Part shown: piece after piece, positions 8,088-23,823 of the stretch | Position numbering within the stretch: position 1 is the stretch's first letter | Layout of the letters: each line of letters opens with the position of its first letter | NCBI GenBank assembly: GCA_016192135.1 | Contig: JACPUR010000024.1 | Coordinates: 1-64,000, forward strand | Length of the DNA: 64,000 nucleotides | Reading direction: 5' to 3' | Origin: Candidatus Tectomicrobia bacterium | GTDB taxonomy: Bacteria > UBA8248 | Translations under genes and position numbers: made by a program | The notes under the pieces: model-generated | Told to the model about the DNA's origin: nothing | The model's input: the letters and a program-made list of their open reading frames with translations, nothing else | Databases searched by the model: none

Positions 8088-10708
8088 GGCTCTCCGCGGG
8101 CCTCGGCCTCGCCGCAGGGGTGCTCTGGCTCGCCCTCGCCTCCGGCTCGTCCTCCGCCGCGCCGGGCAAGGAGACGCCCCCCGAGGTGCTCCACTTCGGC
8201 CTGAGCGCCTTCCGCGACGGGCTCTACGATCCCGCCATCGAGGCCTTCCGCGGCTACATCGCCCGCTGGCCCGCCGGCCAGGGCGCCGCCTCGGCGCGCT
8301 ACTACCTCGCGGAGGCCTACCGCCGGCGCGGGAAGCCCGCCGAGGCCCTCGCGGCCTACCAGGAGTTCGCCGCGCGGCACCCGCGGGACGCGCGGGTTCC
8401 CGAGGCCCGGCTCATGATGGGCGAGCTCCTGGAGAAGAAGGGGGACCGCGCCGGGGCCCTCCAGGCCTACGCCTCGATCAAGGAGGGCCCGCTGCGCCCG
8501 GAGGCCCTCCATCGCACGGCCGCGCTCCACGTCGCGGCGGGGGAATGGATGGGGGCGGCCCGGGCCCTGGGCGAGTTCCGGCGGCTCGCGCCCCGGGACC
8601 CGCGCCAGGAGGCCGCCGCCTACGACCACGCCCTGGCCCTGGACCGCGCCGGGCGGCCCGAGGAGGCCGAGGCGGCCATCCGCGAGGTCCTCGAGAAACA
8701 TCCGCACAACCCGCGCGCCACGGAGTTCCGCCGCCGGCACGGCTTCATCCTCCTGGGGCTCGGGCGACCCGAGGCGGCGGAGCGGGCCTTCGAGGCGCTC
8801 TTCCGGGCCGCGCCCAGCGAGCGCCACCGCGCCGACGTGCGCCTCGGGCACGCGGCGAGCCTCATGGGGCAGAAGAAGCACCGCCAGGCGGCGGGCGTCT
8901 TCGAGGGCGTGCTGGCCTTCTCGCCCTCGGCCGGGGAGCGCCGCACCGCCGAGCGGGGGGCGGCCGCCGCGTGGTGGGAGGCGGGGGAGTTCGCCCGCGC
9001 CGCCTCGGCCTACCGCCGCATGGCCGCCTCCTCGGGCAAGGAGGCGCTGCCCCGCTACATCGCCAGCCTGGACCGCGCCGGGCAGTGCGGGGGCGAGAAG
9101 GGCCGCGAGTCGCTGCGCTACGTCCTGGGCGCGCTGGAGCGGGGGGCCGATCTCGCGCCCCCCGACCGGCTGCGGCTCGGGGACTGCCTGGCGAAGGCCG
9201 GGATGGACGGCGAGGCCGCCGCCCAGTGGGAAGCGCTCGTGAAGGCCGCCCCCGCCTCGGAGGAGGGCCTGTGGGCCGCCCTGCGGCGGGCGGGGCTGCT
9301 CGAGCGCGGGGGGAAGCCGAAGGAGGCGATGGCCGCCTACGCCGCCCTCGCCGAGGCCGCGCAGGGCTTCAAGGGAGAGAAGGAGAAGGCGGCCGAGCCG
9401 CTGCGCCAGGCCGCCCTCCGGGGGGCCTTCCTCCACTACGGGGCGGACGACTGCGCGGGCGCCCTCGGGCTCCTCAAGTCCCTCCCGCGCGACGCGGTGC
9501 CGGAGGAGTCCCGGGCCGAGCTGGCATCGCTCCGGGCCGAGTGCGCCTTCCGGGCGAAGCGCTGGGAGGAGGCCGAGGTGTACTACGAGCAGGTCCTCCT
9601 CGGGGCGCGCCGGCCCGAGCTGGCCGCGCGGGCGCGGCTCCAGCTCGCCGCCGCGGCCGAGGCCAAGGGGGACCGGAAGCTCGCCATCCGGCGCGTGAAA
9701 GAGGCCCTGCCGCTCCTTCCGCCCGAGGCGGCGCGCGAGGCCCGGCTGGCGGGGGCGCGGCTGCTGCGCGGGGAGGGGGACCCGCAGGGGGCGCGGGAGA
9801 TGCTCCTCCCCTTCGCGGAGGACGAGAAGGGCGACCCGGAGCGCAGGCGCGAGGCCTGGCTCTTCCTGGCCCGCGAGGCCGCCGGGCGCGAGGACTGGAA
9901 GGAGGCGGACCGGGCCCTGACCCGCTGGCGGGGGCTCTCGCCCGCCGATCGGTCCGAGGGGCTGGGGATCGAGGCCAAGGTCCGCTGGCGCGAGGGCCGC
10001 TGCCCCGAGGCGTCCGAGGCGGCCCGCCAGGCGCTGGCCGGGCCGGGGGACAATCCGGAGCGGGGCGAGCTGCGGCGCATCGTCGCCGCCTGCCTGCTGA
10101 GGGAGGGGAAGTTCGCCGAGGCGGTGCCCGCCCTCGAGGAAGTGACCCGCCTGGAGCCCCAGGCGCCGGACGCGGCCTTCGAGCTGGCCCAGGCCCTGGA
10201 CCGGGCGGGGGAGGCCCGGAGGGCGGAGGCCGCTTACGCGGACTACCTCGATCGCTTCCGGGGGGAGGGGCGGTGGCAGCGGGCCGCGCTGCGCCTGGGC
10301 TACCTCCGGCTCGCGGAGGGCCGGGAGGGGGAGGCCCTGGAGGCCTTCCGGCTGGCGGCCGGGGCCGAGGCCCCCGAGGTCCGCGGCCCGGCCCGCTACG
10401 AGGTGGCGAGGAGCCTCGAGGCCTCGAAGCCCAAGGCGGCCCTCGATGCCTATGAGAAGCTCGTGGCGGAGGGCACGATCGAGGCGGAGTGGCGGCGCAA
10501 CGCGGCCTGGCGGGCGGCGGCGCTCCGGGAGCGGGCGGGGGAGTGGAAGGAGGCGCTCGCGCTCTACCGGAGGCTCGCGCAGGAGAAGGCGGGCGGCGAG
10601 GGCGAGAGCCGCCAGGCGCACGCCCGGGCCGAGCGGATCGAGGCCTACCTCAAGCAGGCCGAGGAGCGCGAGGAGAAGATGCGGACCCGGGAGCCGCTCT
10701 TCCGGTGA
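8084..10708 (+). CDS. Large secreted TPR-repeat protein 1
   Basis: This encodes 874 aa from GTG 8084, which overlaps the panC stop (GTGA). Residues 1-25 form a Sec signal peptide (hydrophobic LSAGLGLAAGVLWLALASG, then an Ala-x-Ala-like SSAAPG site), so it is exported. The rest is a continuous array of degenerate tetratricopeptide repeats rich in Ala, Glu and Arg (for example AIEAFRGYIARWPAGQGAASARYYLAEAYRRRGKPAEALAAY). No catalytic motif is visible. It is followed by a second TPR protein and an ExbB/ExbD/TonB set, so a periplasmic scaffold role in an energised envelope complex is the best guess. Confidence 0.85.
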   Translation: MRLSAGLGLAAGVLWLALASGSSSAAPGKETPPEVLHFGLSAFRDGLYDPAIEAFRGYIARWPAGQGAASARYYLAEAYRRRGKPAEALAAYQEFAARHPRDARVPEARLMMGELLEKKGDRAGALQAYASIKEGPLRPEALHRTAALHVAAGEWMGAARALGEFRRLAPRDPRQEAAAYDHALALDRAGRPEEAEAAIREVLEKHPHNPRATEFRRRHGFILLGLGRPEAAERAFEALFRAAPSERHRADVRLGHAASLMGQKKHRQAAGVFEGVLAFSPSAGERRTAERGAAAAWWEAGEFARAASAYRRMAASSGKEALPRYIASLDRAGQCGGEKGRESLRYVLGALERGADLAPPDRLRLGDCLAKAGMDGEAAAQWEALVKAAPASEEGLWAALRRAGLLERGGKPKEAMAAYAALAEAAQGFKGEKEKAAEPLRQAALRGAFLHYGADDCAGALGLLKSLPRDAVPEESRAELASLRAECAFRAKRWEEAEVYYEQVLLGARRPELAARARLQLAAAAEAKGDRKLAIRRVKEALPLLPPEAAREARLAGARLLRGEGDPQGAREMLLPFAEDEKGDPERRREAWLFLAREAAGREDWKEADRALTRWRGLSPADRSEGLGIEAKVRWREGRCPEASEAARQALAGPGDNPERGELRRIVAACLLREGKFAEAVPALEEVTRLEPQAPDAAFELAQALDRAGEARRAEAAYADYLDRFRGEGRWQRAALRLGYLRLAEGREGEALEAFRLAAGAEAPEVRGPARYEVARSLEASKPKAALDAYEKLVAEGTIEAEWRRNAAWRAAALRERAGEWKEALALYRRLAQEKAGGEGESRQAHARAERIEAYLKQAEEREEKMRTREPLFR

Positions 10709-18231: not shown

Positions 18232-18275
18232 TTGCCTCTCCGGCGAAATAATTATAATTTTAGTTATAAGGAGGG
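18232..18275 (+). promoter_or_regulatory. Promoter and likely autoregulatory operator of the toxin-antitoxin pair
   Basis: A consensus -10 TATAAT is at 18253-18258, with a -35-like TTGCCT at 18232-18237 (15-bp spacer). Two TTATAA boxes (18252-18257 and 18264-18269) flank a 6-bp spacer and overlap the -10, a plausible AbrB-type operator. A strong ribosome site AAGGAGGG is at 18268-18275. The stretch is strongly AT-rich in high-GC surroundings. Confidence 0.6.
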
Positions 18276-18282
18276 ACGCGCC

Positions 18283-18582
18283 ATGCCCAGCACCAGGACG
18301 AAGGCCGCCAAGCCGAAAGCCGCGAAGCGGAAGGCCAAGAAAGCCTCGCCCGCCCGGAAGGACACCGTGAAGCTCCGGAAGGTGGGGGGCTCCCTGGGGG
18401 TGATCCTCCCCAAAGAGGCGCTCGACGCCCTGAATCTCAAGGAGGGCGACGAGATGTTCCTCCACAGCACGCCCGAGGGGGTGAAGCTGACGCCGTACGA
18501 TCCGACCTTTGCCGAGGTCATGGAGTCCACTCACGACTACATGCGCCGCCACCGGAACGCCCTGCGCGAGCTGGCGAAGTGA
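18283..18582 (+). CDS. SpoVT/AbrB-domain antitoxin
   Basis: This encodes 99 aa. ATG 18283 follows AAGGAGGG by 7 nt. The N-terminal 30 residues are Lys/Ala-rich (TKAAKPKAAKRKAKKAS) and probably disordered. Residues about 32-75 are a swapped-hairpin AbrB domain: TVKLRKVGGSLGVILPKEALDALNLKEGDEMFL. The C-terminal helix (FAEVMESTHDYMRRHRNALRELAK) probably binds and neutralises the toxin. It overlaps the downstream toxin gene by 4 nt (GTGA), so the two are translationally coupled with the antitoxin first. AbrB antitoxins usually repress their own promoter, and the TTATAA pair upstream fits. Confidence 0.9.
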   Translation: MPSTRTKAAKPKAAKRKAKKASPARKDTVKLRKVGGSLGVILPKEALDALNLKEGDEMFLHSTPEGVKLTPYDPTFAEVMESTHDYMRRHRNALRELAK

Positions 18583-18974
18583 AGGCCGAGCCCAGGTGGC
18601 TCACCGTCGCAATAGTTAAGGACGTCCATGAGGCGCAACTCCGCCTCTTCGGAGGTTCGTTCGGGATACGCGACGCGGGCCTTCTGGAAAGCGCCGTGGA
18701 GCGCCCGAAGCATCTCTTTCACTACGGCGAGAACCCGTCGCTTTTCGACCTGGCTGCTACCCTTTGCATGGGTCTGGTCAAGAATCACCCCTTTGTGGAC
18801 GGCAACAAGCGTGCCGCCCTGCTGAGCGCCCGCGCCTTCCTCTACATCAACGGCCAGGTATTCGAGCCGGAGGAGGTGGACGAGGTGCGCATCATGCTGG
18901 CCGCCGCGGCGGGCGGGGCGGACGAGGCGCTCCTGGCCCGCTGGTTCAAGGATTTCTCGAAGCGCCGCCGCTGA
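18579..18974 (+). CDS. doc: Doc/Fic-family death-on-curing toxin
   Basis: This encodes 131 aa from GTG 18579, which overlaps the antitoxin stop. The Fic-fold active motif is HPFVDGNKRAA, followed by FLYINGQ. This is the Doc subtype (HxFxDxNKR), which in phage P1 phosphorylates EF-Tu and stalls translation. Conserved upstream elements (FGIRDAGLLESAVERP) match Doc. The catalytic His, Asp, Asn, Lys and Arg are all present, so it should be active. Classic Doc partners with a Phd antitoxin; here the partner has an AbrB domain. Confidence 0.92.
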   Translation: MKAEPRWLTVAIVKDVHEAQLRLFGGSFGIRDAGLLESAVERPKHLFHYGENPSLFDLAATLCMGLVKNHPFVDGNKRAALLSARAFLYINGQVFEPEEVDEVRIMLAAAAGGADEALLARWFKDFSKRRR

Positions 18975-19313: not shown

Positions 19314-19556
19314 TTACCCTCCGACGATGGCCGGGAAGACGGAGAGCTCGGCGCCCTCCCGGAGGGGGGCGTCCGGGGTGGCGTGGCGGCCGTCGAGGAG
19401 GATGACGTAGGCCTCCTCGTGGGGGATCTGAAAGCGGTCGAGGACGTCCGCGACCCGGGCGCCCGGGGGCAGGCCGAGGGAGTGGGCGCCCTCCTCGTCC
19501 ACCTCGGGGGGCATCTTGCCGGCGAAGTCGGCGTAGAGGCGGAGCCGGATGTTCAT
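19314..19556 (-). CDS. MoaD/ThiS-family sulfur-carrier protein in the lar operon
   Basis: This encodes 80 aa. ATG 19556 overlaps the larC stop by ATGA. It has the beta-grasp ubiquitin-like pattern (NIRLRLYADFAGKMP, ARVADVLDRFQIP, AYVILLDGRHA, DAPLREGAELSVFPAIVGG) and ends in the obligatory Gly-Gly that is activated as a thiocarboxylate. MoaD serves molybdopterin and ThiS serves thiamine, but neither pathway is encoded nearby. Its tight coupling to larEBC suggests that it delivers sulfur during nickel-pincer cofactor synthesis. An E1-like activating enzyme is not in the window. Confidence 0.88.
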   Translation of the reverse strand: MNIRLRLYADFAGKMPPEVDEEGAHSLGLPPGARVADVLDRFQIPHEEAYVILLDGRHATPDAPLREGAELSVFPAIVGG

Positions 19557-20827
19557 GGGTCCTTTCCCGGAGCGGCGCGGCCCGCCGTGGGCGCGGCCGA
19601 GCGGGCGGCGGCGAGGGCGGCGTCCATCACTTCCTTGAGGGGGGCGCCCGAGGCCTCGGCCAGGCGGCGGCAGTCCTCGAACTCGGGGGCGAGGTTCACG
19701 ATCTCTCCCTCCCAGCGCGCCCGCTTGACCCGCGCCCGGCCCCAGGGGAGGTCCACCTCGATCCAGTCGCGCTCCGCGGTCGAGCGCTCGGCGGCGCGGT
19801 GGCGCACCCCCAGGGTGGTGGTTTCGCGGAAGAGCATCCGGGTCAGCTCCTCGCGGCGCTCGGGGGGGCAGAGCAGCGTCAGCAGGTGGGCGGGCCGGCC
19901 CTTCTTGCCCACGGTGGGGACGGCGAAGGCGTCGAGCGCCCCCAGCGCCAGGGCCCGCTCGATGACGTGGGGGAAGAGCTCGGGCCGCATGTCGTCGAGG
20001 TTGGCCTCCAGGATGGAGACGACGGAGGGCGGGGCGTCCCCGGACGCCGCTTGGCCGGCCTGGGAGGCCTCGCCCAAAAAGGCGCGGACGAGGTTGGGGA
20101 GGGCGGCGTCCCGTTCCCCGGAGCCGTACCCCACGGCCGCGACCTTCATGGCGGGCATGGGGCCGAACGAGGCGGCGCTCTCGGCCAGGAGGAGCGCCCC
20201 GGTCGGGGTGAGCACCTCGCCCTCCAGGCCGTTGTCGAAGACGGGGATCCCCTCCAGGAGCTTGGCCGTGGCGGGGGCGGGGACGGGCATCCGCCCGTGG
20301 GCCGCGTGGACGTAGCCCCGGCCCACCGGAAGGGGGGAGGCCGTCACCCGCTCGACGCTCAGGAGCTCCAGGGCCAGGAAGTAGCCCGCGATGTCCACGA
20401 TGGAGTCCTCGGCCCCCACCTCGTGGAAGTGGATGGACTCGACGGGGACGCCGTGGATGCCCGCTTCGACCTCCCCCAGCCGCCGGAAGGCCTTGAGGGC
20501 GCGCTCCCGGGGCCGGGGGGGCAGGGAGGACTGGCGGATGAGGCGCTCGATCTCGGTGAGGGAGCGGCCGTGGCTGTGCCCGTGGCCTTGGTGCTCATGC
20601 CCGTGCCCGTGATGGGAGTGATCATGAGGGCGCTCCACGTGCACCCGGAACTGGGAGGCGGAGACGCCTCGCTTCACCACCCGGCCGAGCGAGAGCCGAA
20701 CACCCTCCAGCCCCAGGGACTGGAGCGGCCCCTCCAGGGAGGCGAGGGGGAGCCCCAGGTCGAGCAGGGCGCCGAGGAGCATGTCCCCCGCGACCCCGGC
20801 GAAGCAGTCGAAGTGGAGGGCTCTCAT
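19553..20827 (-). CDS. larC: Nickel-pincer cofactor biosynthesis protein LarC
   Basis: This encodes 424 aa. ATG 20827 overlaps the larB stop (ATGA). It starts with the LarC signature HFDCFAGVAGDMLLGALLDLG, then a histidine-rich nickel-binding stretch (about 67-88, many His in HDHSHHGHGHEHQGHGHSHG), then IHFHEVGAEDSIVDI and LTPTGALLL. LarC uses CTP to insert nickel into the dithio-pyridinium nucleotide made by LarB and LarE. In Lactiplantibacillus the protein is split and joined by ribosomal frameshifting; here it is one uninterrupted frame. The LarA racemase gene is not in the window. Confidence 0.96.
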   Translation of the reverse strand: MRALHFDCFAGVAGDMLLGALLDLGLPLASLEGPLQSLGLEGVRLSLGRVVKRGVSASQFRVHVERPHDHSHHGHGHEHQGHGHSHGRSLTEIERLIRQSSLPPRPRERALKAFRRLGEVEAGIHGVPVESIHFHEVGAEDSIVDIAGYFLALELLSVERVTASPLPVGRGYVHAAHGRMPVPAPATAKLLEGIPVFDNGLEGEVLTPTGALLLAESAASFGPMPAMKVAAVGYGSGERDAALPNLVRAFLGEASQAGQAASGDAPPSVVSILEANLDDMRPELFPHVIERALALGALDAFAVPTVGKKGRPAHLLTLLCPPERREELTRMLFRETTTLGVRHRAAERSTAERDWIEVDLPWGRARVKRARWEGEIVNLAPEFEDCRRLAEASGAPLKEVMDAALAAARSAAPTAGRAAPGKDP

Positions 20828-21582
20828 CTCTTGGCCGCCAGGCGGTTGATGAGGTGGGCCTGGCAGCCGGCGCCGAAGCCGTTGTCGATGTTCACCACCG
20901 AGAGCCCGGCCGCGCAGGAGGTGAGCATCGCGAAAAGCGCCGTCAGCCCGCCCAGGCTCGCGCCGTACCCGATGGAGGTGGGGACGGCGATCACCGGCAC
21001 GTCCACCAGCCCGGCCACCACCGATGGCAGCGCCCCCTCCATCCCGGCCACGACGACGATGGCGTTCGCCTCGCGCAGCGCCGGGAGATCGGCGAGCAGG
21101 CGGTGGAGCCCGGCCACCCCGGCGTCGTAGATGCGCTCGGCGCGGGAGCCCAGCGTCTCGGCGGTGACGGCGGCCTCCTCGGCGACCGGGAGGTCGGAGG
21201 TCCCGGCGCAGACGACGGCCACGAGCCCCACGGAGGCCGGGGGCTCGGGCGAGGGGAGGACGGCGATGCGGGCCGCCTCGTGGTGGACCGTCTCGGGGAA
21301 AATCTCGCGGAGGGCGCGGACGTGCTCATCCTTCGCCCGGGTCAGGAGGACGGGAGAGCCCTTGGCCCGGAGGCTCCGGGCGATCTCGGCCACCTGGGCG
21401 GCCGTCTTCCCGGCCCCGAAGATGACCTCGGGGAAGCCGTTGCGGAGGGCGCGGTGGTGATCGACGCGGGTGTGGCCCAGGTCCTCGAAGGGGAGGTCGC
21501 GCAGCCGCTCGGCGGCCTCCTGGGGGCTTATGGCCCCCTCGCGCACCTGCTCCAGGAGAGCCTGGATCCGGCCGGGGTTCAC
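20824..21582 (-). CDS. larB: Nickel-pincer cofactor biosynthesis protein LarB (NaAD carboxylase/hydrolase)
   Basis: This encodes 252 aa from GTG 21582, which overlaps the larE stop (GTGA). The N-terminal part reads RIQALLEQVREGAISPQEAAERLRDLPFEDLGHTRVDHHR and GFPEVIFGAGKT. The C-terminal AIR-carboxylase-like core has VVCAGTSDLPVAEEAAVTAETLG, VVVAGMEGALPSVVAGLV and PTSIGYGASLGG. LarB carboxylates the pyridinium ring of nicotinic acid adenine dinucleotide and cleaves the phosphoanhydride, the first step of the nickel-pincer pathway. It is similar to PurE in its core, but the N-terminal extension and operon position identify LarB. Confidence 0.96.
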   Translation of the reverse strand: MNPGRIQALLEQVREGAISPQEAAERLRDLPFEDLGHTRVDHHRALRNGFPEVIFGAGKTAAQVAEIARSLRAKGSPVLLTRAKDEHVRALREIFPETVHHEAARIAVLPSPEPPASVGLVAVVCAGTSDLPVAEEAAVTAETLGSRAERIYDAGVAGLHRLLADLPALREANAIVVVAGMEGALPSVVAGLVDVPVIAVPTSIGYGASLGGLTALFAMLTSCAAGLSVVNIDNGFGAGCQAHLINRLAAKR

Positions 21583-22421
21583 GGGAGGACGGGGAGGCCG
21601 TTCCGCCCCCGGAGGACCTCGTTCATGCTCCCGGAGCGGAAGCCCTCCAGGTCGAGGGCGACGTAGGTGAAGCCCGCCGCCTTGACGCGCCGCGCGGCCT
21701 CCTCCGCGAGCCCCCGGGCGAAGAGGGCGGGAATCTCCTCCCTGGGGATCTCGATCCGGGCGATGGTGCCGTGATGCCGCACCCGGAGCTGGCGGAAGCC
21801 CAGCTCGCGGAGCGAGGCCTCGGCCCGCTCCACCTGGGCGATCTTCTCGGGGGTGATGCGGTCCCCGTAGGGGAACCGGCTGGAGAGGCAGGCCTGGGCG
21901 GGCTTGTCCCAGGTGGGGAGGCCGAGCTCCCGCGAGAGGTGGCGGATCTCGGCCTTGGTGAAGCCGGCCTCCATCAGGGGGCTGCGTACCTCGCGCTCGC
22001 GGGCGGCCCGCATGCCGGGGCGGTGGTCCCCCAGGTCGTCGGCGTTCGAGCCGTCGGCGATGACCGGGAGGCCCTCCTCGTCGGCCACCCGGCGGAGGAC
22101 GCCGTAGAGCTCGTCCTTGCAGAAGTAGCAGCGGTTCGGCGGGTTGTTGCCGAAGGAGGGGTCGCTGATCTCCTCGGTGTCCACGATGCGGTGGCGGATG
22201 CCGATGCGGCGGGCGAGCTCGGCCGACTCCTCCAGCTCGGCCCGGGCCAGGGTGACGGATCTCCCGGTGACGGCCAGGGCGCGGGGGCCCAGCACCCGGT
22301 GGGCCACGCAGGCGAGGAGGGTGCTGTCCGCCCCGGCCGAGAAGGCGACGAGCACGCCTCCCGCTTCGCGGAGGATGCCCTCGAGCCTGCGGGTTTTCTC
22401 TTCCAGATGGGCCGATTCCAA
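21579..22421 (-). CDS. larE: ATP-dependent sacrificial/Fe-S sulfur transferase LarE
   Basis: This encodes 280 aa. The start is TTG 22421, chosen because GGGAGGAAA lies 5 nt upstream. The PP-loop is VAFSAGADSTLLA (25-37). Three cysteines stand out: C98 and C101 in NRCYFCK and C178 in PAQACLSSRFPYG. C178 matches the sacrificial cysteine of Lactiplantibacillus LarE. Enzymes with all three, such as that of Thermotoga, bind a [4Fe-4S] cluster and act catalytically. LarE adenylates the pyridinium carboxylates and replaces them with thiocarboxylates. It is the first gene of larE-larB-larC-carrier, each joined by a 4-nt overlap. Confidence 0.95.
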   Translation of the reverse strand: MESAHLEEKTRRLEGILREAGGVLVAFSAGADSTLLACVAHRVLGPRALAVTGRSVTLARAELEESAELARRIGIRHRIVDTEEISDPSFGNNPPNRCYFCKDELYGVLRRVADEEGLPVIADGSNADDLGDHRPGMRAAREREVRSPLMEAGFTKAEIRHLSRELGLPTWDKPAQACLSSRFPYGDRITPEKIAQVERAEASLRELGFRQLRVRHHGTIARIEIPREEIPALFARGLAEEAARRVKAAGFTYVALDLEGFRSGSMNEVLRGRNGLPVLP

Positions 22422-22593: not shown

Positions 22594-22679
22594 GGACGAA
22601 TTGATCCACTTCCCCCTCTCCCTCCGGGAGAGGGGCGGCAGCCACGAAACGATATTTGCTTGAGAACTTGCCAGCGGAG

Positions 22680-22706
22680 GATCGGGCGAGGCTTCATCGC
22701 CCGATC
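22680..22706 (+). promoter_or_regulatory. Perfect 10-bp stem-loop in the hisC leader
   Basis: GATCGGGCGA (22680-22689), loop GGCTTCA, TCGCCCGATC (22697-22706). It ends 6 nt before the hisC ribosome site AAAGGAGA. It could modulate translation or mRNA stability. No U-tract follows, so it is not a standard terminator. Confidence 0.55.
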
Positions 22707-22728
22707 TGATTCAAAGGAGATCCCCGCG

Positions 22729-23823
22729 ATGCCGTTCGACCCCAAGGCCCTGCTGCGCAAGGGAGTGGACTCCCTCGCGCCCTACATCCCCGGCCGGACG
22801 ATGGAGGAGGTGGCCCGGGAATACGGCGCGGCGGACATCGTGAAGCTGGCGAGCAACGAGAACGCGCTCGGGCCCTCGCCCGCGGCGCTGCGGGCGCTCC
22901 AGGCCGCGGTCGGAAAGCTGCACCGCTACCCGGACAGCGCGGCCCGGGACCTCCGGGCCAAGCTCGCCGGGAAGCTGGGGGTGGCGGCGGGGCAGGTGTT
23001 CGTGGGGAACGGCGGGGACGACGTGCTCTCCGTGCTGGCGCGCACCTTCCTGAACGAGGGGGAGGAGGCCGTCATCCCCGCGCCTACCTTCAGCCCCTAT
23101 GCCCACGTCTCGCGGGTCATGGGGGCGCGGGTGGTGACGAGCCCCCTGCGGGACTTCCGGATCGATCTCGGGGACGTCCGCGCCAAGGTGACGGAGCGGA
23201 CGAAGCTCATCTTCCTCTGCAGCCCGAACAACCCGACGGGCGCCATCCTCCCCGAGCGGGAGCTCGTCCCCTTCCTGAAGAGCCTGCCCCCGCGAGCGAT
23301 GGTGCTCCTGGATGAAGCCTACGGGGATTTTGTGGAGGACCCGGCGTTTCCCGATTCCATCGCGCTGAGCGGGCGGTTTCCGCTCGTCGTGCTGCGCTCG
23401 TTCTCGAAGATCTACGGCCTGGCGGGCCTGCGGGTGGGCCTGGGGGTGGGGCGGGAGGAGCTGATCGGTTACATGGATCGGGTGCGGGAGCCGTTTAACG
23501 TGAACCTTCTGGCCCAGGCCGCCGCCGCCGCCGCCCTGGACGACGAGGCCTACCGCCGGAAGGCCATCGAGACGGTGAAGGAGGGGAGGCGGAGGCTCTA
23601 CGCCGCCTTCCGGCGGATGGAGCTGCCCTGCCTGGAGAGCCAGGCCAATTTCGTCTTCGTCCGGGTAGGGGACGGGGACGGGGTGTTCGAGGCGCTCATG
23701 CGCCGGGGGGTCATCGTCCGCCCGGGGAGCGTCTTCGGCTGTCCGGAATGGATCCGCGTGACGGTGGGCCTGCCCGGAGAGGATGCGAGGTTCCTGGAGG
23801 CGCTGCGGGAAATCCTCGGTTGA
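22729..23823 (+). CDS. hisC: Histidinol-phosphate aminotransferase
   Basis: This encodes 364 aa. ATG 22729 follows AAAGGAGA. It is a fold-type I aminotransferase with HisC character: LASNENALGPSP, LHRYPDSAARDLRAKLA, VGNGGDDVLSVLARTF, SPNNPTG (165-171) and the PLP lysine K227 in RSFSKIYGLAGLRVG. It converts histidinol phosphate and 2-oxoglutarate to imidazole-acetol phosphate and glutamate, in the reversible direction used for histidine synthesis. No other his gene is nearby. Some HisC proteins also act on aromatic amino acids, which cannot be excluded. Confidence 0.92.
   Translation: MPFDPKALLRKGVDSLAPYIPGRTMEEVAREYGAADIVKLASNENALGPSPAALRALQAAVGKLHRYPDSAARDLRAKLAGKLGVAAGQVFVGNGGDDVLSVLARTFLNEGEEAVIPAPTFSPYAHVSRVMGARVVTSPLRDFRIDLGDVRAKVTERTKLIFLCSPNNPTGAILPERELVPFLKSLPPRAMVLLDEAYGDFVEDPAFPDSIALSGRFPLVVLRSFSKIYGLAGLRVGLGVGREELIGYMDRVREPFNVNLLAQAAAAAALDDEAYRRKAIETVKEGRRRLYAAFRRMELPCLESQANFVFVRVGDGDGVFEALMRRGVIVRPGSVFGCPEWIRVTVGLPGEDARFLEALREILG

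Follow-up and report, generated by a model that had tools for sequence, protein, structure and literature searches.

A lar operon ending in a gene for a ubiquitin-like carrier protein, a candidate sulfur donor to LarE in one family of Candidatus Tectomicrobia

The locus described here raises the question of how the sulfur insertase LarE, of NPN cofactor biosynthesis, receives its sulfur. Lactiplantibacillus plantarum, whose lar operon likewise contains larB, larC and larE (PMC11796402) and in which no carrier gene has been described, has a LarE that lacks a cysteine triad and sacrifices its Cys176. In T. maritima, by contrast, LarE is a catalytic [4Fe-4S] sulfur insertase for which a cysteine desulfurase (the E. 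coli enzyme, IscS) serves as donor in vitro (PMC9283937). In the 64,000-nucleotide stretch of Candidatus Tectomicrobia DNA analysed here (from contig JACPUR010000024.1; this whole stretch is referred to as the window), larE, larB and larC are followed by a gene for a small protein ending in Gly-Gly, and we ask whether this protein could be a ubiquitin-like carrier that feeds LarE. The features concerned, in window coordinates, are:

22660..23823, forward strand: hisC (TIGR01141, 350 bits), divergent neighbour upstream of larE, used as synteny anchor
21579..22421, reverse strand: larE, PP-loop sulfur insertase of the tri-Cys ([4Fe-4S]) type, TTG start, 280 aa
22323..22340, reverse strand: LarE P-loop SAGADS (usual form SGGxDS); SAG is the form in 8 of the 12 family sequences that could be read, and in 4 of 92 from outside the family
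22119..22130, reverse strand: codons of C98-x-x-C101, predicted cluster ligands equivalent to T. maritima C92/C95, invariant in all LarE sequences aligned
21888..21890, reverse strand: codon of C178, third predicted ligand, equivalent to T. maritima C172 (alignment to 5udq)
20824..21582, reverse strand: larB, NaAD carboxylase/hydrolase, GTG start (NF033503, 293.4 bits)
19553..20827, reverse strand: larC, nickel insertion (LarC1+LarC2), ATG start (TIGR00299, 202 bits; NF052512, 145 bits)
19314..19556, reverse strand: carrier gene, ThiS/MoaD/TtuB-like, ATG start, 80 aa
19317..19322, reverse strand: C-terminal Gly79-Gly80 of the carrier, predicted site of adenylation and thiocarboxylation, invariant in all relatives

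LarB, LarC and LarE, which together define an NPN biosynthesis operon, are all identified here by NCBIfam equivalogs above cut-off; the larE product matches TIGR00268 over its full length (336.7 bits, cut-off 150) and is also recognised by comparison with L. plantarum LarE (5udq; 6.5e-52, phmmer). Successive genes overlap by 4 nt, as GTGA between larE and larB and as ATGA between larB and larC and between larC and the carrier gene. A reading made from the sequence alone had described larE, larB, larC and an 80-residue Gly-Gly beta-grasp protein joined by such overlaps, and the open reading frames, the NCBIfam and Pfam matches and the AF2 fold all bear this out. An AbrB/MazE-type antitoxin and Doc (Fic) toxin pair (TIGR02609, TIGR01550) lies at 18232-18974 of the window.

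The carrier has the attributes of a ThiS/MoaD/TtuB-type protein, in that it scores 33 bits against Pfam ThiS (cut-off 22.5), its AF2 model (pLDDT 90.9) adopts the beta-grasp fold, and its C-terminus reads VFPAIVGG-stop. Neighbours of the model in the PDB include SAMP1, MoaD and TtuB, and the TtuB of the TtuA-TtuB complex (5gha) stands at rank 9 amongst the solved structures, with MoaD and SAMP1 scoring equally well or better. Aligned carriers of the family share 26 invariant columns, and a search of plasmids for the carrier gave no match.

We followed the arrangement through the 18 genomes of the family, a small one of uncultured bacteria represented by Ca. Tectomicrobia/'Nitrospinota' MAGs; the source genome shares its genus with Candidatus Tectomicrobia RIFCSPLOWO2_12_FULL_69_37, and the other members are MAGs labelled Nitrospinota. 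In every one of the 13 genomes, from five genera, in which the end of larC and the stretch that follows are assembled (G000, G002, G003, G004, G006, G007, G008, G009, G011, G013, G014, G015 and G016), the carrier gene comes directly after larC, so that the linkage extends well beyond a single strain. The 4-nt ATGA overlap is identical in nine of these, the remaining four having a gap of 69 or 142 bp, and the carrier is under purifying selection (pairwise dN/dS 0.03-0.11 within genus g5). Since the arrangement is kept in 13 genomes and the protein is so constrained within one genus, chance is excluded for the gene order, and we regard the linkage of carrier and lar genes as real and conserved in the family. 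Within the present sample, the combination is restricted to this one bacterial family.

The 280-residue LarE frame contains cysteines at 38, 98, 101 and 178, confirming the three (C98, C101 and C178) that had been picked out beforehand, and, in the alignment to 5udq, Ala177 takes the position at which L. plantarum LarE has its sacrificial Cys176. Triad and alanine together match the [4Fe-4S] type known from work on the T. maritima enzyme (PMC9283937), and support the assignment of this LarE to the non-sacrificial kind with a predicted cluster. The earlier contrast with the sacrificial Lactiplantibacillus route is not new, because catalytic action has already been established for LarE of T. maritima. 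Similarly, whilst the triad does fit the Fe-S type with which it had been associated, it is the norm rather than a special set: it is present in all 92 LarE rows aligned from outside the family (a few of which are one gene entered twice), in agreement with the report that most LarE proteins have it (PMC9283937).

This bears on the expectation that a three-cysteine LarE goes with a carrier. Outside the family we surveyed 121 LarE loci, of which 31 have larB or larC close by and some end early at contig ends; a carrier adjoins a lar gene at none of them, although the carrier search model was built from nine seeds and very divergent carriers could therefore have escaped it. Screening again, this time for any frame next to lar genes whose product ends in Gly-Gly, gave no convincing case, and no natural LarE-carrier fusion was seen at the LarE loci surveyed. 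Four ThiS/MoaD-like genes were found at the non-family loci, 1.9-5.7 kb from LarE genes that lack larB or larC. With the triad in every LarE aligned and no carrier adjoining the lar genes of the 121 loci, the triad does not predict the carrier; a correlation between the two was rejected, and the lar-carrier linkage did not recur independently at these loci. T. maritima, whose LarE shares family membership, the CxxC...C triad and independence of a sacrificial cysteine with the protein described here, differs in drawing its sulfur from a cysteine desulfurase, and has no reported carrier gene and no PF02597 (ThiS-family) match. A carrier is accordingly no general requirement for LarE, and most operons with a cluster-type LarE are without one.

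A further possibility was that the carrier is an ordinary MoaD or ThiS next to its usual partner. Four further ThiS-family proteins are encoded in the genome: ThiS is followed by ThiG and MoaD by MoaE, the latter pair lying away from the lar operon, a CysO-like carrier is found near a PALP-family (cysteine-synthase-like) gene and an E1, and a MoaD-like carrier adjoins an aldehyde:ferredoxin oxidoreductase (AOR) gene. As these have partners of their own, and no moaE or other moa gene adjoins the lar carrier, the latter is not a MoaD or ThiS of that ordinary kind, either here or in the rest of the family. The genome contains a single PF00899 E1 (ThiF/MoeB-type; L051, contig C35 of the source genome G000), close to the PALP-family synthase and CysO-like carrier, and this one E1 would have to serve all carriers.

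On this evidence we put at about one in two the probability of a joint reading in which the locus is a four-gene NPN-cofactor operon with a sulfur carrier of the ubiquitin-like kind as the product of its final gene, and in which that carrier acts as a thiocarboxylate donor, peculiar to this lineage and probably not exclusive, to the predicted [4Fe-4S] LarE, by analogy with TtuB and TtuA. The single MoeB/ThiF-type E1 would adenylate the C-terminal glycine of the carrier, and a persulfide from a cysteine desulfurase or rhodanese would convert the adenylated form to the thiocarboxylate. The carrier would then dock on LarE, whose AF2 model has pLDDT below 50 at residues 86-100 and 177-181, i.e. 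in the cluster loops, and is too weak there for a docking site to be judged. At its open iron, a cluster held by C98, C101 and C178 would take up the sulfur and then hand it on to the AMP-activated form of P2CMN, the product of LarB; two such transfers would yield P2TMN, after which LarC would insert nickel.

The components of this scheme are all of known kinds, and it is their combination that is new. The closest precedent is TtuA-TtuB of Thermus thermophilus, in which a PP-loop enzyme with a tri-Cys [4Fe-4S] cluster receives sulfur from a ubiquitin-like Gly-Gly carrier, the C-terminus of which binds the unique iron of the cluster (PMC7138817); the parallel between TtuA and cluster-type LarE has itself been drawn (PMC9283937). 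TtuA is, however, only distantly related to LarE and acts on tRNA, whereas the lar carrier gene stands in a cofactor operon and its product is a putative partner of LarE. Some organisms have TtuA without TtuB (PMC7138817), so that carrier-fed LarEs existing beside desulfurase-fed ones would be a close parallel. We found no paper joining LarE with a carrier, in a literature of which subscription journals were thinly covered, and to that extent the sequence-only reading was right that no such dependence had been described. Were the proposal true, a PP-loop Fe-S thiolase would be fed by a ubiquitin-like carrier outside tRNA modification, and the logic of TtuA-TtuB would extend from tRNA to a nickel cofactor; with the carrier encoded inside the operon, a defined LarE/carrier pair is at hand for testing. 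The stronger claim that LarE in this lineage requires the thiocarboxylated carrier, making a third NPN sulfur route in addition to those through a sacrificial cysteine or a cluster fed by a desulfurase, can be advanced only tentatively, at slightly less than even odds.

The carrier had also been thought of as dedicated to LarE, and this is doubtful. In G005 (2.2 Mb, 91% complete) the orthologous carrier gene (contig C64, 9043-8804; L165) and the divergently oriented hisC (9213-10331) are separated by about 170 bp, with no larE, larB or larC in the very place that these genes occupy in the other genomes, and neither LarE, LarC nor LarA was found elsewhere in that genome; the carrier itself is nevertheless intact to VFPAIVGG and keeps 23 of the 26 invariant residues. 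The gene is therefore not confined to genomes with LarE, and since this relative keeps it without lar genes the carrier probably has acceptors besides LarE, which makes G005 a natural case on carrier specificity. Use of one carrier by several acceptors, redundantly, is documented in T. kodakarensis (PMC11323500) and would account for G005. The interpretation of a carrier-fed LarE thus retains the conserved linkage, a carrier distinct from ThiS and MoaD and a non-sacrificial LarE, and gives up the link with the triad, the dedication of the carrier and the novelty of the contrast with L. plantarum.

The main rival casts the carrier as a MoaD paralogue that works in tungstopterin (AOR) assembly and stands in the lar operon by happenstance, LarE obtaining its sulfur, like its T. 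maritima counterpart, from a cysteine desulfurase. The closest carriers outside the family (33-43% identity, two of these homologues sharing the NGRH motif) adjoin either AOR genes, as in Propionivibrio and a further two records from proteobacteria (L144, L145 and L147), or a ThiF gene; MoaDs linked to AORs form an established set (PMC1779556; aorD of Aromatoleum, PMC6365974), and AORs occur in all 18 family genomes, including G005 with its carrier and no lar genes. These MoaDs are, however, tied to tungsten oxidoreductases rather than to lar genes and lack the KMP...EG segment of the family carriers, and the AORs beside them are no close orthologues of those in this genome (at most 34% identity). 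No AOR is present in the operon, the AOR genes being on contigs C41, C23 and C35, and one AOR type comes with a neighbouring MoaD-like gene already. In G012 (98% complete) there are four AORs and neither lar genes nor a lar-type carrier, although this genome also lacks the lar-linked hisC, so that an assembly gap is possible. Nor does this explanation account for a 4-nt coupling to larC conserved over five genera, and we consider it unlikely, if still the most serious alternative. The AOR-type W enzyme concerned is encoded at L262 (G000, contig C23, 34144-35660) and is directly followed by its MoaD-like carrier, which ends in GQFMGG; in several relatives a weak ThiS-family match adjoins the same AOR type.

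Less probable again is a general-purpose sulfur carrier (for tRNA thiolation, cofactors or protein conjugation) that was at the locus before the lar genes, with larEBC inserted between hisC and carrier and expression shared by accident: redundant, promiscuous carriers of the T. kodakarensis kind, the adjacency of hisC and carrier in G005, and the position of that genome as first branch of the HisC2 tree (85/86, with long-branch warnings; as earliest branch it is not rejected, p-AU 0.46) speak for it, but the AOR1 tree sets G005 beside genus g5 (92/95), which would mean that G005 lost its lar genes, its carrier is most similar to those of g5, and an accidental adjacency would not be expected to hold the overlap at exactly 4 nt in nine of the 13 genomes.

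As to enzymes that would use the cofactor, LarA homologues are present in 9 of the 18 family genomes, and the sole one of the source genome is encoded on another contig, larA being absent from this operon. No LarA match was obtained in G002, G003, G007, G008 and G014, although larE, larB, larC and the carrier gene are present, and in these genomes the NPN cofactor may therefore serve some unknown enzyme; larBCE without larA has been noted before, in about 15% of genomes analysed (PMC11796402). For the LarA homologue of the source genome (L050, contig C1, 8708-9985) the nearest NCBIfam model is the malate racemase LarAH6, at a score below its cut-off. The cluster around it includes a HisF-like gene (Pfam His_biosynth) together with two others, whose products start with CKRC and have no Pfam match; these look like putative sugar amidotransferases.
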